Shown: in pieces, positions 19,317 through 24,400 of the stretch
How the letters are laid out: each line of letters opens with the position of its first letter
Numbering within the stretch: the stretch's first letter is position 1
Assembly: GCF_003990335.1 (NCBI RefSeq)
Contig: NZ_CP034683.1
Location: forward strand, 944,501 to 1,008,500
Length of the DNA: 64,000 nt
DNA from: Rheinheimera mangrovi
GTDB taxonomy: Bacteria; Pseudomonadota; Gammaproteobacteria; Enterobacterales; Alteromonadaceae
Reading direction: 5' to 3'
The notes under the pieces: model-generated
Databases searched by the model: none
The model's input: the letters and a program-made list of their open reading frames with translations, nothing else
Told to the model about the DNA's origin: nothing
Made by a program: the position numbers and the translations under genes

Positions 19317-19520
19317 ATGCTTATTTTAACGCGTCGTGTTGGTGAGACACTGATGATCGGTGATGAAGTCACGGTCACAGTTTTAGGCGTCAAAGGAAAT
19401 CAGGTTCGTATTGGTGTGAATGCACCAAAAGAAGTATCAGTGCACAGAGAAGAGATTTACATGCGCATTCAGGCTGAAAAAGGCACCCCAGGTGGCTTTA
19501 GCGGCGATGACGATCAATAA
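19317..19520 (+). CDS. csrA: carbon storage regulator CsrA
   Basis: 67 residues starting [18 protein letters not shown]. Start ATG 19317 has a strong AAAGGAG site; an in-frame ATG at 19269 would add 16 unrelated residues. RNA-binding dimer that blocks or stabilises GGA-containing messages and controls carbon flow, motility and biofilm formation. Residues needed for RNA binding are present, including Leu4 and Arg44 in VHREEIY. Position downstream of alaS-lysC is common in gammaproteobacteria. The C-terminal extension ([12 protein letters not shown]) is acidic and variable in the family. Confidence 0.96.
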
Positions 19521-19631
19521 GTTTTAAGCTTTATCATTTTTAGAAATTGTATATTTTTAACGCTTTGTAGCGAATAATTAGTCGAATTGTTTAAAAGGTC
19601 AGCAAACGCGCTTTCCAGCTCCAAAAATTGT

Positions 19632-19659
19632 TTGACTTATTTTCCTGAGACATTAATAT
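19632..19659 (+). promoter_or_regulatory. sigma-70 promoter of tRNA cluster
   Basis: TTGACT at 19632-19637, a 16-base spacer, TAATAT at 19654-19659, then a GC-rich discriminator (ACACGCCGC) of the kind found at stringently controlled stable-RNA promoters. Twenty bases precede the mature tRNA-Ser. Confidence 0.75.
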
Positions 19660-19678
19660 ACACGCCGCAACGTAGCGC

Positions 19679-19768
19679 GGAGAAGTGGCCGAGTGGCTGA
19701 AGGCGCACCCCTGCTAAGGGTGTATAGGGGAAACTCTATCGAGGGTTCGAATCCCTCCTTCTCCGCCA
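19679..19768 (+). tRNA. tRNA-Ser (GCU)
   Basis: 90 nt including encoded CCA. Acceptor GGAGAAG pairs with CTTCTCC; anticodon loop CTGCTAA gives GCU; the long variable arm (TATAGGGGAAACTCTATC) and TTCGAAT loop are typical of class II tRNA-Ser. First gene of the cluster. Confidence 0.97.
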
Positions 19769-19785
19769 GTTGTACTGTTAAGATT

Positions 19786-19862
19786 GGATGCATAGCTCAG
19801 CTGGATAGAGTACTCGGCTACGAACCGAGCGGTCGGAGGTTCGAATCCTCCTGCGTCCACCA
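19786..19862 (+). tRNA. tRNA-Arg (ACG)
   Basis: 77 nt with encoded CCA. Acceptor GGATGCA pairs with TGCGTCC; anticodon loop CTACGAA gives ACG, whose first A is normally edited to inosine by TadA. D arm AGCTCAGCTGGATAGAGT and T loop TTCGAAT are canonical. Identical to the next copy. Confidence 0.97.
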
Positions 19863-19901
19863 CTTAACTGCAACGACGATGTGAAAAAGAAAGTACCAGA
19901 T

Positions 19902-19978
19902 GGATGCATAGCTCAGCTGGATAGAGTACTCGGCTACGAACCGAGCGGTCGGAGGTTCGAATCCTCCTGCGTCCACCA
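19902..19978 (+). tRNA. tRNA-Arg (ACG), second identical copy
   Basis: Exact duplicate of the 19786-19862 gene, separated from it by 39 bases. Same folding, anticodon ACG and encoded CCA. Last mature tRNA before the terminator and the repeat array. Confidence 0.97.
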
Positions 19979-19984
19979 CAACTA

Positions 19985-20011
19985 AACCTGCTAAGTGCAG
20001 GTTTTTTTGTT
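19985..20011 (+). terminator. intrinsic terminator after tRNA cluster
   Basis: AACCTGC / GCAGGTT stem with a 5-base loop and a T7 tract, 6 bases after the last tRNA. The repeat array starts immediately downstream, so array RNA would need read-through or its own promoter. Confidence 0.8.
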
Positions 20012-20015
20012 TTTC

Positions 20016-20995
20016 GCATCCCTGCGAAAAATCCCTCCGGGACCCGCCGTGCGGCGGTCCAAAAACGCTCCCGGCGTTTTTGTGTTTCCTTTTTTATAAG
20101 TTGATGATGAAAGGGTTGCCTGCGGGATAGATCTTCTTGTTGCCTGTTTAAAAACCTTCATGTGACGTCCCTGCGAAAAATCCCTCCGGGACCCGCCGTG
20201 CGGCGGTCCAAAAACGCTCCCGGCGTTTTTGTGTTTCCTTTTTCCATAAGTGAGTGATGAAAGGGTTGCCTGCGGGATAGATCTTCTTGTTGCCTGTTTA
20301 AAAACCTTCATGTGACATCCCTGCGAAAAATCCCTCCGGGACCCGCCGTGCGGCGGTCCAAAAACGCTCCCGGCGTTTTTGTGTTTCCTTTTTCCATAAG
20401 TGAGTGATGAAAGGGTTGCCTGCGGGATAGATCTTCTTGTTGCCTGTTTAAAAACCTTCATGTGACATCCCTGCGAAAAATCCCTCCGGGACCCGCCGTG
20501 CGGCGGTCCAAAAACGCTCCCGGCGTTTTTGTGTTTCCTTTTTTATAAGTTGATGATGAAAGGGTTGCCTGCGGGATAGATCTTCTTGTTGCCTGTTTAA
20601 AAACCTTCATGTGACATCCCTGCGAAAAATCCCTCCGGGACCCGCCGTGCGGCGGTCCAAAAACGCTCCCGGCGTTTTTGTGTTTCCTTTTTTATAAGTT
20701 GATGATGAAAGGGTTGCCTGCGGGATAGATCTTCTTGTTGCCTGTTTAAAAACCTTCATGTGACATCCCTGCGGAAAATCCCTTCGGGACTCGCCGTGCG
20801 GCGGTCCAAAAACGCTCCCGGCGTTTTTGTGTTTCCTTTTTCCATAAGTGAGTGATGAAAGGGTTGCCTGCGGGATAGATCTTCTTGTTGCCGTTTAAAA
20901 ACCTTCATGTGACATCCCTGCGAAAAATTTCTTCGGGACTCGTCGTGCGACGATCTAAAAACGCTCCCGGCGTTTTTGTGTTTCTTTATTGGGTA
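20016..20995 (+). repeat. seven-copy 149-150 bp tandem repeat downstream of tRNA-Arg
   Basis: The anchor CCTGCG occurs at 20021, 20170, 20320, 20470, 20619, 20768 and 20917, so periods are 149, 150, 150, 149, 149, 149. Copies 1-5 are nearly identical; copy 6 is slightly and copy 7 clearly diverged, and copy 7 is incomplete. Each unit has three potential hairpins: TCCC/GGGA, a stem GGACCCGCCG / CGGCGGTCC with one bulged C, and a terminator-like AAAAACGC / GCGTTTTT. Two spacer variants alternate (ATAAGTTGATGATG in copies 1, 4, 5; CATAAGTGAGTGATG in 2, 3, 6). Diverged copies keep the stems through compensatory changes. Minus-strand open frames through the array depend on the 150-bp period and are probably incidental. 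Confidence 0.9.
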
Positions 20996-21000
20996 ATGAT

Positions 21001-21460
21001 GATGGAAGGGCATGCCAGAGGACATAGATCGTCTTGTCAAACTTTCTGCAGGCATCGCCTTTATCTATGGTTGCCCGAACAAATTTTTGCAGTGTTTTTA
21101 ATTTCGTCGCGTTTAACCTGCAACATAGCTTGAATTTTGAGCACAATAACGCTCTTTATATGGCGTTCCGGATATTGGTGCAAAAATTAAACACAGCACA
21201 ACTGTGCACAACTATTCGCATTCGTTTATGCGCAAATGAATTAGGTGATGTTTTAGTCGGGTGTTTCTCAAATTTAGACGACAGTAAAAAGGCTGAAAAG
21301 TTCCGTCGAAAGTTATTGACCTTAAGGAAAAGGTCAGCTTACTATCGAAATGTTACCAAATAGACACATTCTGTTTGTAACAGGGCAACAGTCGCCTGAC
21401 AAGACTGAGTAAATTAATAAGAAAATCACTAAAAACAGTGATCCAGGGAGATAAAAAAAT
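21001..21460 (+). promoter_or_regulatory. AT-rich leader of TonB receptor with dyad sequences
   Basis: 460 bases between the repeat array and the receptor. A TTG-initiated frame at 21034-21363 has no recognisable protein features. Visible dyads are TGACCTT-N6-AAGGTCA at 21317-21336, TGTTACCAAA...TTTGTAACA at 21351-21382, and a hairpin ATCACT-N6-AGTGAT at 21425-21442 just before the ribosome site GGGAG. The first two may be operators; the last may affect translation. No specific regulator can be named. Confidence 0.4.
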
Positions 21461-24400
21461 ATGTACACGAAAAACAAACTAGCAACATCTGTGCGCACGG
21501 CATTGCTATTTGGTGCTACTGCACTTCTTAGTTCAACTGCTTTCGCTCAGGACACCTCGGCTTCAGAAGAAGATACAAAAGCCAAAGATGCGAAAACAGA
21601 ACGTATTCAGGTTACAGGTTCTCGTATTCGTACTGACGGACTTGAGTCTGCAGTGCCAGTAGAAATTTTGACTGCGGATATTGCTGGTGCACAAGGTCTG
21701 GCAACTTTAAGTGATTTACTGCGTACATCAACTGTAGCTTCTGGTTCTAACCAGTTAACATCTGCGTTAACAGTTGGTTATGTGACTGCTGGTGGTGCTG
21801 GTGCTGAATCAGTGGATATGCGTGGTTTAGGTTCAAACCGTACTCTGATTTTATTAAACGGACGTCGTGCTGGCCCTGCTGGTACTCGTGGTCAGGTAAA
21901 CGCCTTTGACTTAAACAGTTTGCCAATCTCCTTAATTGAACGTGTTGAAATACTGAAAGACGGTGCATCTTCACTTTATGGTTCTGATGCTGTGGCTGGC
22001 GTGATCAACATCATCACTAAAAAAGGTGATGACTCTTCAGTAAACGTGAGTTTGAGCCAACCATTCGATTCAGGTGGTGAAAACCAACGTATTGACTTTA
22101 CCATAGGTAAAACCTTTGATAAGGGCTCTGTCCGTGTAATGGCGGACTATAAAATTCAACACGAATTAGCTCGTGGTGACCGTGATTACTTCGCATGTAA
22201 AGAGCGTGTACTTTTTGATACAGAAACAGGTGAACGTGCCGATCCTATCGATCCTCGTACTGGTTCTTACCACTGTGCTGATACTCAGTCAGGTATCTGG
22301 GTATACGAGCACAGTGCTGCAACACGCCCTACAGGCAACTTTTTACCAGGCATGAAAGCCCAGTATGACTACGGTGGTGTTCTGGCTGGTTTAAATACCC
22401 GTCCTATGCCAGCTGCTACAGGACCAAATGGTATTACACTGCCTGAAAATTGGTTCCCGGTATCTTATGACCGTGAATCAGACGCCATTGCCAATACCGA
22501 CCACAGATTCCAGGACTTACAGTCTTTTACTCCGGAAACTGAAGTTGGCTCACTGTTCTTCCAGGGTGATTACAACCTGAATGATGACGTTCGTTTGTTC
22601 GGTGACATCCTGCACAGCCGCCGTACCACTACAATCAACAGCTACCGTCAGTTCTGGAACGGCGATCGCCGTATCTTAGGTACTGCTTTAGTGGGCGAAA
22701 ATGATTACAACCAAGGTTGGGGTGGTGCTTCGTCTTTAATGGCTGTTGCTATGACCAATTGGACTGGTGGCGAAACTGATATCAACTACACCCGTTATGT
22801 ACTTGGTGCTGATGGTAGTATTGGCGATTGGGACTGGGAAGTTTCTTACCAGAACAGTTACAACAAAGGTACTTATAAAAATAAAATCATCCACAAAGAT
22901 GCGATGGATTTAGCCCAGTCTTTACTGCCAACAATGGCTAACCCTACGGCTCAGTACTGTAACGGCCAGGTTACTCCATATTCAGGTAAAACCTGCGTTG
23001 ATTTAAGATGGTTAGACCCAGAATTTAACGACGGTAACTTGTTACCATCAGAACGTGAATTCTTATTTGGTATAGACAGAGGTGTAACCACCTACAGACA
23101 GTCAACTATTGAAGCTGTGTTATCTGGTGATCTGTACGAGCTGCCAGCTGGTCAGGTTGGTACTGCAGTTGGTGTTCAATACCAGCAAGATGAGTTAAAT
23201 GACACACCGGGTGAGCAAACATTGTTAGGCAACCTGTGGGGTTCTTCCAGTTCAGGTATCACCGCTGGTGATCAGTCTACAAGAGCTGTGTTCAGTGAAT
23301 TCCAGATCCCTGTATTGGCTGACATGTTCTTAGTGAAAAGCCTTGATGTGACTTTATCTGGCCGTTGGACTGACGTAAACACCTATGGTAACGACACCAC
23401 CTATAAAGCCGGTATTAACTGGGATATAGCTGCAGGTTTCCGTGTTCGTGCTTCACGAGGTTCATCTTTCCGTTCTCCAGCTTTGTTTGAGCTGTACTTA
23501 GGTAACCAAAGTGGTTTCCTGGGCCAAACAACTGCGGATCCATGCTTAAACTGGTCAGGCAGAGAAGCTGACGGTACTATTGATGACCGCGTGCTGGCAA
23601 ACTGTAAGGCCGATGGCGTCCCTGCGTCTTACACTTCTGCAGGCTCGTCTGCAACATCATACACAGCTGGTGGTGCAGGTCGCTTAAAAGCTGAAACTTC
23701 AGTGGCTGAAACTATTGGTTTAGTGTGGACCAGCGAAGACAATGAAATTGGTGCGTCAGTTGATGCCTATGAATACAACATATCTAGCCAGATTTCGTCT
23801 GTAAGTGGTTCAGATATCACCAACACTTGCTACCGTTCTGCAAACTTTGCTTCAGAGCCGTTATGTAACCAGTTTACAAGACGTGATGGAACAAACGGTG
23901 ACTATGGTGTTGATGAGATTTTTGGTGGTTACTTAAACGTAGCTAGCCAGAAGATCAGAGGTATTGACTTAGCATTCAACTACAACATCGATACTGATAT
24001 GGGTCGTTTTGGCGTTGATTACAAACACAACATTCAGCTGGAAAAAACGTATCAGTTGTTTGCGGACAGTGAGCCAGACCAGTATGTTGGTGATGTTGGC
24101 TCTCCGAAGCACTCTGGTATTGCCCGTTTCTCACTGAAGCGTGATGGCTGGTCATACATCTGGTCGACTCAGTACACTGGTAAAGCTGATGACTGGAAGT
24201 ATTTCTCCAGTACAACTACAGCTTACCGTGGCGAGCGTTATAACTTTATTGCACATGTACCAAGCTATATTGTTCATACTGCATCAGCTATGACGTCATT
24301 TGAGTCTGGTGTTGATCTGACATTTGGTGTTGCTAACGTGTTTGGTAAAGAGCCGCCTAAGGTTAGTGCTGCTGGTGGTTTCTATCAGGCTGGTTACTCA

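Follow-up and report, generated by a model that had tools for sequence, protein, structure and literature searches.

A tandem array beside csrA in Rheinheimera mangrovi carries antisense copies of a dispersed four-hairpin element, the core of rrB-type TLRs

An array of seven tandem units with hairpins lies behind the csrA-linked tRNA genes of Rheinheimera mangrovi, and the question raised by this locus is what the units are and whether, as the original prediction proposed, they are maintained as an RNA transcribed in the same direction as the tRNAs. The window that was analyzed is a 64-kb stretch (positions 944501-1008500) of the 4.63-Mb single-contig genome. It was compared with the rest of this genome, with the same locus in relatives, and with other genomes of the family and order. 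Taken as a whole, the original prediction was partly supported: the observation was confirmed, and the interpretation was supported in part.

Organization of the locus and the array

The csrA gene (19317..19520, plus strand; 67 aa; Pfam CsrA PF02599, E 8.4e-26) is followed on the same strand by tRNA-Ser(GCU) (19679..19768) and two copies of tRNA-Arg(ACG) (19786..19862 and 19902..19978), all three detected by ARAGORN and as Rfam tRNA. Next is a terminator-like hairpin 3' of the tRNA genes (19984..20004, plus strand), recognized from the sequence, the T-run of which borders the array. The seven units follow, and a TonB-receptor gene lies downstream. The units start at 20020, 20169, 20319, 20469, 20618, 20767, and 20916, which corresponds to spacings of 149, 150, 150, 149, 149, and 149 bp, and the seven-unit array with its 149/150-bp spacing was also recovered by TRF, with a score (>1700) far above chance. 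Units 1 to 6 were 96.7 to 100% identical to unit 3, and unit 7, taken as 149 bp, was 72% identical; the high unit identity points to a recent amplification. A coding role was rejected, because the period of 149/150 is not divisible by three and the 156-aa minus-strand frame at 19991-20461 is mechanical.

The hairpin letters that had been quoted for the array are present in the units, and the stems remain paired. The two C-G to T-A changes and the TTTC/GGGA stem in unit 7 and the single T-G in unit 6 were likewise found as described, and where only one side has changed in these two units, the pair reads as G-T in plus-strand and as A-C in minus-strand orientation. The central stem and the neighboring TCCC/GGGA stem had been described together. 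The letters of both exist, but the stems do not coexist: the GGA of TCCC/GGGA and the GGACC.. arm are identical letters (..TCCGGGACCC..), and the outer central stem and the neighboring stem are therefore mutually exclusive.

The hairpin part of each unit is a copy of a dispersed element

When one unit was used as the query in a DNA search, the hairpin part was also detected outside the array, behind the 5S rRNA in five rRNA operons of the same genome. The hairpin part of each unit is a copy of a 73-nt dispersed element with four hairpins. An alignment (A1) of 32 copies from this genome and near relatives was the basis of a model of the element (R1); both carry a bias, as the copies were initially chosen with GGA loops and with G-T, but not A-C, allowed in the arms. 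At E ≤1, R1 had seven matches in the 64-kb window, and these are the seven units, all on the minus strand. Copy 1, in unit 1 (20010..20083; 85.3 bits), has 21/21 Watson-Crick pairs and is the sole copy with all four hairpins. Hairpin 4 is broken at the unit junction in copy 2 (20159..20232; 70.2 bits) and is also broken in copies 3, 4, and 5 (20309..20382, 20459..20532, and 20608..20681; 71.9 bits each). The copies with the altered pairs scored lower, 63.3 bits for copy 6 (20757..20830) and 52.7 bits for copy 7 (20906..20979). The fourth hairpin, TTTTTCGCA-TCCC-TGCGAAAAA, is complete in unit 1 only and is split by the unit junction in units 2 to 7. The spacer between the hairpin clusters, of which one copy with a few flanking bases is at 20227..20320 (plus strand), has six copies in the genome; when 21 genomes of the genus were searched, its only match outside the array was a single stretch of 25 nt (E 0.0083) in a different genome.

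The element was detected at at least 62 places in the R. mangrovi genome at E ≤0.01 and at least 67 at E ≤1, with 150 of 857 candidates scored. With stricter filters than in the own-genome search, it was found in at least 44 of 59 genomes and 41 of 52 genera of the family (E ≤1e-3) and in at least 53 of 158 genomes of the order (E ≤1e-4), representing 12 families including that of R. mangrovi. Further tandem runs of the element, with four, three, and three copies that start 72 to 86 bp apart, were noted at three other loci (L164, L174, and L163); these runs are without the long spacer and adjoin protein genes.

Identity with a known Rfam family was ruled out: at the gathering score no family other than tRNA and rRNA was matched, the RtT model was silent, and at E ≤5 the matches on six loci were all sub-threshold. 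A plasmid or phage origin was also rejected, as the window's copy had no match in the plasmid or phage collection; one other copy was searched against plasmids. A search of the literature, in which subscription journals were thinly covered, returned nothing on the dispersed element.

The element is the core of rrB-type TLRs

E. coli has 22 TLRs at ten loci, each ending in 18 to 19 bp of the upstream tRNA or rRNA 3' end, and the TLRs RrA, RrB, and RrF are located between T1 and T2 of rrnA, rrnB, and rrnD (PMC8144298). According to the same account, TLRs were first described in 1978 and their function was not previously known, and rrB is known in at least 31 species from 12 genera, all Enterobacteriales (PMC8144298). 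Only copies from the window's genus and from near relatives had gone into R1. It matched rrB and rrF with 49.4 bits each (E 8e-13) in 65.6 kb of E. coli sequence, where the next best match had 11.9 bits. The element is thus the core of rrB-type TLRs in four-hairpin sequence and structure. RrB and RrF resemble it in the four-hairpin core, the GGA loops, and the place behind stable-RNA genes. However, TLRs are in sense orientation to their operon and end in 18 to 19 bp of the tRNA or rRNA 3' end, whereas the array in the window is antisense and without that end; in the 1.48 kb downstream, the longest stretch shared with tRNA-Arg was 7 nt, as expected by chance (shuffled sequences: mean, 7.9; maximum, 13). 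The array also differs from TLRs in its 149-bp period and its own spacer. Because it is antisense and the tRNA 3' end is missing, the array in the window is a TLR core rather than a TLR.

The same synteny is present in E. coli at csrA-serV-argVYZQ, where repeats with cores like hairpins 2 and 3 (H2/H3) that end in AATCCTCCCGGATGCACCA were recognized by eye; R1 had no match at E ≤1 at this argVYZQ locus (L328). The array had also been compared to the rtT repeats of E. coli. This comparison named the right class, as tRNA-end repeats are found at csrA-serV-argVYZQ of E. coli and at the corresponding locus of relatives, but it did not extend to a match with the Rfam RtT model (RF00391), which had no match in the R. 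mangrovi genome at E ≤10 and was positive in the E. coli control. Like the array, rtT/rttR (tyrT-tyrV) repeats are located behind tRNA genes, and the limits of the rtT core, right after the GGTTCGA of the T-loop and ahead of ATCC, agree by eye with those in relatives from Rheinheimera. Unlike in the element, GGA loops were not seen in rtT/rttR, and R1 gave only 8.1 bits for rttR (E 0.79).

The same locus in relatives

Of 80 relatives returned with LysC, the ten nearest (L042-L051; 92 to 96% identity) were used, eight of which are named Rheinheimera and two of which are MAGs named Gammaproteobacteria; the loci in two (L045 and L046) end early at a contig end. Loci L014-L018 and L030, apparent duplicates of counted loci with like scores, were left out of the counts. 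In five of the ten loci (L042, L043, L046, L047, and L051), the tRNA-Arg 3' end was repeated with no more than one mismatch over 19 positions, and the copies at the csrA-tRNA locus of relatives therefore have the 3' end of TLRs, as partial copies. Four loci had an antisense element behind a terminator of the tRNA-Arg genes, which in L042, L043, and L047 was the second terminator; in L048, the element is located directly behind the first. A tandem array like that in the window was present at this locus in none of the ten nearest relatives.

Stem changes favor neither strand as RNA

According to the original prediction, the array is selected as a structured plus-strand RNA that is transcribed from the tRNA operon. 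The position behind the tRNAs, the compensatory replacement of C-G by T-A in unit 7, and wobbles that pair only on the plus strand are all consistent with this proposal. At the level of the family, double changes were detected at all 21 pairs in an alignment fitted to the structure (A3; 146 matches, 134 distinct), in which 97.1% of the cells pair and covariation was 0.699, compared to 0.168 when shuffled. This covariation was not taken as proof of an RNA, because a DNA palindrome gives the same pair changes and because A3 is structure-fitted.

An RNA under selection would favor wobble pairs on its transcribed strand. In the loop-blind set, the ratio of G-T to A-C cells was 17:17 in the 61 rows from outside the window, with 93 further cells in the same rows being other mismatches, many of them from register slips. 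This even ratio favors neither strand as RNA. The R1-fitted sets A3 and A2, counted on the element strand (the minus strand in the window), had ratios of 36:12 and 26:21, a lean to the minus strand that is subject to the training bias of R1. Among 16 distinct copies in antisense position behind tRNA-Arg, the ratio was 6:5. The window units contributed 4 and 4, with their G-T cells in the broken hairpin 4, and the copies from outside the window contributed the few remaining cells, two G-T and one A-C. In units 6 and 7, the wobbles on the plus strand amount to three or four single-sided C-to-T changes without support elsewhere.

Further evidence argues against selection for a plus-strand RNA. 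The conserved GGA loops are on the minus strand, a terminator-like hairpin precedes the array, and the folding of the unit was not clearly unusual, with z values of -1.76 for the plus strand, where 11 of 200 shuffles were as good, and -0.83 for the minus strand. We therefore consider a selected plus-strand RNA quite unlikely.

GGA loops and CsrA

In order to remove the loop bias of R1, a model with masked loops (R2) was searched in six genomes and gave 73 matches. When one of five near-identical rRNA loci was kept, 72 rows from 44 loci remained, 66 of them distinct, with one truncated row lacking hairpin 4. The loop of hairpin 1 contained GGA in 65 of the 66 distinct rows, and that of hairpin 4 did so in 55 in strict register and in 62 with free register. 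The reading of the other strand, TCC, was found in these loops in 0/66 rows, and the loops of hairpins 2 and 3 were variable. The consensus for CsrA binding is CANGGANG. At the family level, the GGA loops of hairpins 1 and 4 look like candidate CsrA sites. A GGA in a loop is described as the canonical CsrA site, and RrB RNA of E. coli binds CsrA in vitro, with weaker binding when three GGA motifs are changed (PMC8144298). CsrB is bound better by CsrA than RrB is, and the phenotypes of RrB deletion and overexpression are characterized as modest and puzzling (PMC8144298).

The sponge RNAs CsrB and RsmZ share GGA hairpin loops, CANGGA(T/C)G-like, with the element, but they are single dedicated genes, whereas the element occurs dispersed and has stems that form Watson-Crick palindromes. 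Another locus of the R. mangrovi genome (L122; G000:C1:3938280-3938501) has a CsrB-like RNA with CAGGATG loops that scored 41.1 bits against an Rfam cut-off of 71; at E ≤10, the CsrB-like Rfam model also matched 8 of 14 control genomes, among them archaeal ones.

If transcribed from the minus strand, the array might act as a CsrA sponge, with GGA-loop hairpins in series next to csrA. The near-constant GGA in hairpins 1 and 4 throughout the family and the binding of E. coli RrB to CsrA in vitro, GGA dependent in part (PMC8144298), are consistent with this possibility. In the array, the GGA loops are on the minus strand only. However, a scan of 19550-21500 found no sigma-70-like promoter on that strand. 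Units 2 to 7 have a broken hairpin 4, the hairpin that fits the CsrA consensus better, and just 5 of 25 clusters had a T-run terminator within 75 nt that acts in the direction of the element. A transcript would run antisense into tRNA-Arg, and the genome already has the CsrB-like RNA at L122. A sponge encoded by the array thus appears unlikely, and we think that CsrA binding, if relevant, would belong to sense copies elsewhere.

The element appears to behave as a mobile DNA hairpin

In one genome from outside the family, the element splits a repeat of an apparent CRISPR array (L310; G152:C1, about 2406429-2406497). The boundaries, as judged by eye, are ..GGGGCTA, the element from C to GCA, and AACCG.., and a target duplication is absent. 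The same element boundaries split the T-loop copy in the tRNA-Arg repeats of relatives (GGTTCGA, element, ATCC; by eye). These insertion contexts suggest that the element behaves as a mobile DNA hairpin. At L310, a second, divergent copy of the element in inverted orientation apparently adjoins the first, and at five other loci (L016, L044, L050, L166, and L171) the copies are nested, with an inverted element directly after hairpin 1 of another (both by eye).

The surroundings of the element were evaluated in 25 clusters of the R. mangrovi genome, a set that excludes rRNA loci and the weak loci L177 and L180. Within 75 nt, a T-run hairpin was present on the 3' side (element strand) of 12 clusters and on the 5' side of 2. 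The T-run served the other strand, that of the neighboring gene, in 10 of the 12 and the element strand in 5, some serving both. When a T-run was not required, flanking hairpins were found on the 3' side in 15 of the 25 clusters and on the 5' side in 11. In 22 of 24 clusters, the gene that is closest on the 3' side is directed toward the element (sign test, 3.6e-5; mechanical ORFs of ≥90 aa, window left out; exceptions, L169 and L170). Gene direction and the strand of the T-run together indicate that the element usually sits reversed behind the end of a gene, as in the window. The copies behind 5S and in the tRNA repeats of relatives are in sense orientation. At the rRNA loci L008-L012, the sense element behind 5S is followed by 16 nt that repeat the 5S 3' end (GTAGTTCACCGCCAGG), an arrangement that resembles E. 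coli rrnB T1-T2.

Dispersed intergenic palindromes are also typical of REP/BIME, which the element resembles in being short and often beside terminators, and mobilization by a RAYT (Y1 HUH) transposase might be considered because the genome has one Y1_Tnp gene. However, no copy of the element was present beside that gene in the 3.3 kb that was read, and Y1_Tnp/RAYT (PF01797) occurred in 6 of 14 family genomes with at least 10 elements compared to 8 of 15 with none. Unlike in REP/BIME, there is no RAYT association, and the arms vary freely while the loop letters are fixed. The absent Y1 linkage in the R. mangrovi genome and in the family genomes ruled out REP/RAYT as the identity of the element, and we regard mobilization of this kind as highly improbable. 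No transposase that moves the element was found. The Y1 (RAYT-like) transposase gene (298 aa) at L125 (G000:C1:3172266-3172589) lies between inverted copies of a second transposase region, which we take to be IS110-like.

Origin and role of the array

The array most probably arose from a mobile four-hairpin element that landed in antisense orientation and was amplified by slippage, and it probably has no RNA of its own and at most an effect on read-through. The terminator of the csrA-linked tRNA operon is directly followed by an antisense copy of the element, which would have landed there, as in several relatives. A stretch of 149 bp, bounded by the hairpin 4 loop on one side and by a short downstream match on the other, would then have been multiplied in the R. 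mangrovi lineage by slippage or unequal crossing-over. The putative junctions at this one locus are GCATCCC in the loop of hairpin 4 (20016..20022, plus strand) on the left and GCATCGCC after unit 7 (21052..21059, plus strand), the probable ancestral junction, on the right. Slippage between GCATCCC and GCATCGCC would account for the start of the unit in the hairpin 4 loop and for the broken hairpin 4 in units 2 to 7. The continued complementarity of the stems suggests that the element functions or is preserved as a hairpin in either strand. Most likely, the array does not give rise to a separate RNA where it now lies, and read-through from the tRNA operon would meet seven further terminator-like hairpins before the TonB-receptor gene.

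Whether the array is kept for this reason, as a set of back-up terminators against read-through from the tRNA operon, is a separate matter. The locus has 10 terminator-like sites compared to 3.2 expected, and seven of these are hairpin 1 of the array units on the plus strand. Hairpin 1 has only three or four G-C pairs as a terminator. The ten nearest relatives are without such an array, with four of the ten having one antisense copy behind a terminator, and the high identity of the units points to a recent amplification. Retention as back-up terminators is possible but doubtful. We think that the array is a recent amplification, the effect of which is at most that of a back-up terminator.

Implications

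The TLR core is now placed in 12 families of the sampled order, where it is dispersed, keeps its GGA loops, reaches as many as dozens of copies in a genome, and also occurs inside an apparent CRISPR repeat. An origin of rrB-type TLRs from a mobile hairpin, with settlement next to terminators and within duplicated stable-RNA ends, thus becomes testable, as does the link to CsrA. The rrnB T1-T2 stretch, described as widely used on plasmids (PMC8144298), is concerned too. The sense copies in rRNA and tRNA operons are probably CsrA-binding RNAs, as in E. coli. More tentatively, the TLR core could be a spreading mobile hairpin with ready CsrA sites, present across much of this gammaproteobacterial order, and the titration of CsrA would then be set partly by this element. 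If so, any landing on a transcribed strand would add CsrA-binding capacity, copies in rRNA and tRNA operons would couple the titration of CsrA to growth rate, and the array in the window would be a lineage-specific amplification beside csrA.
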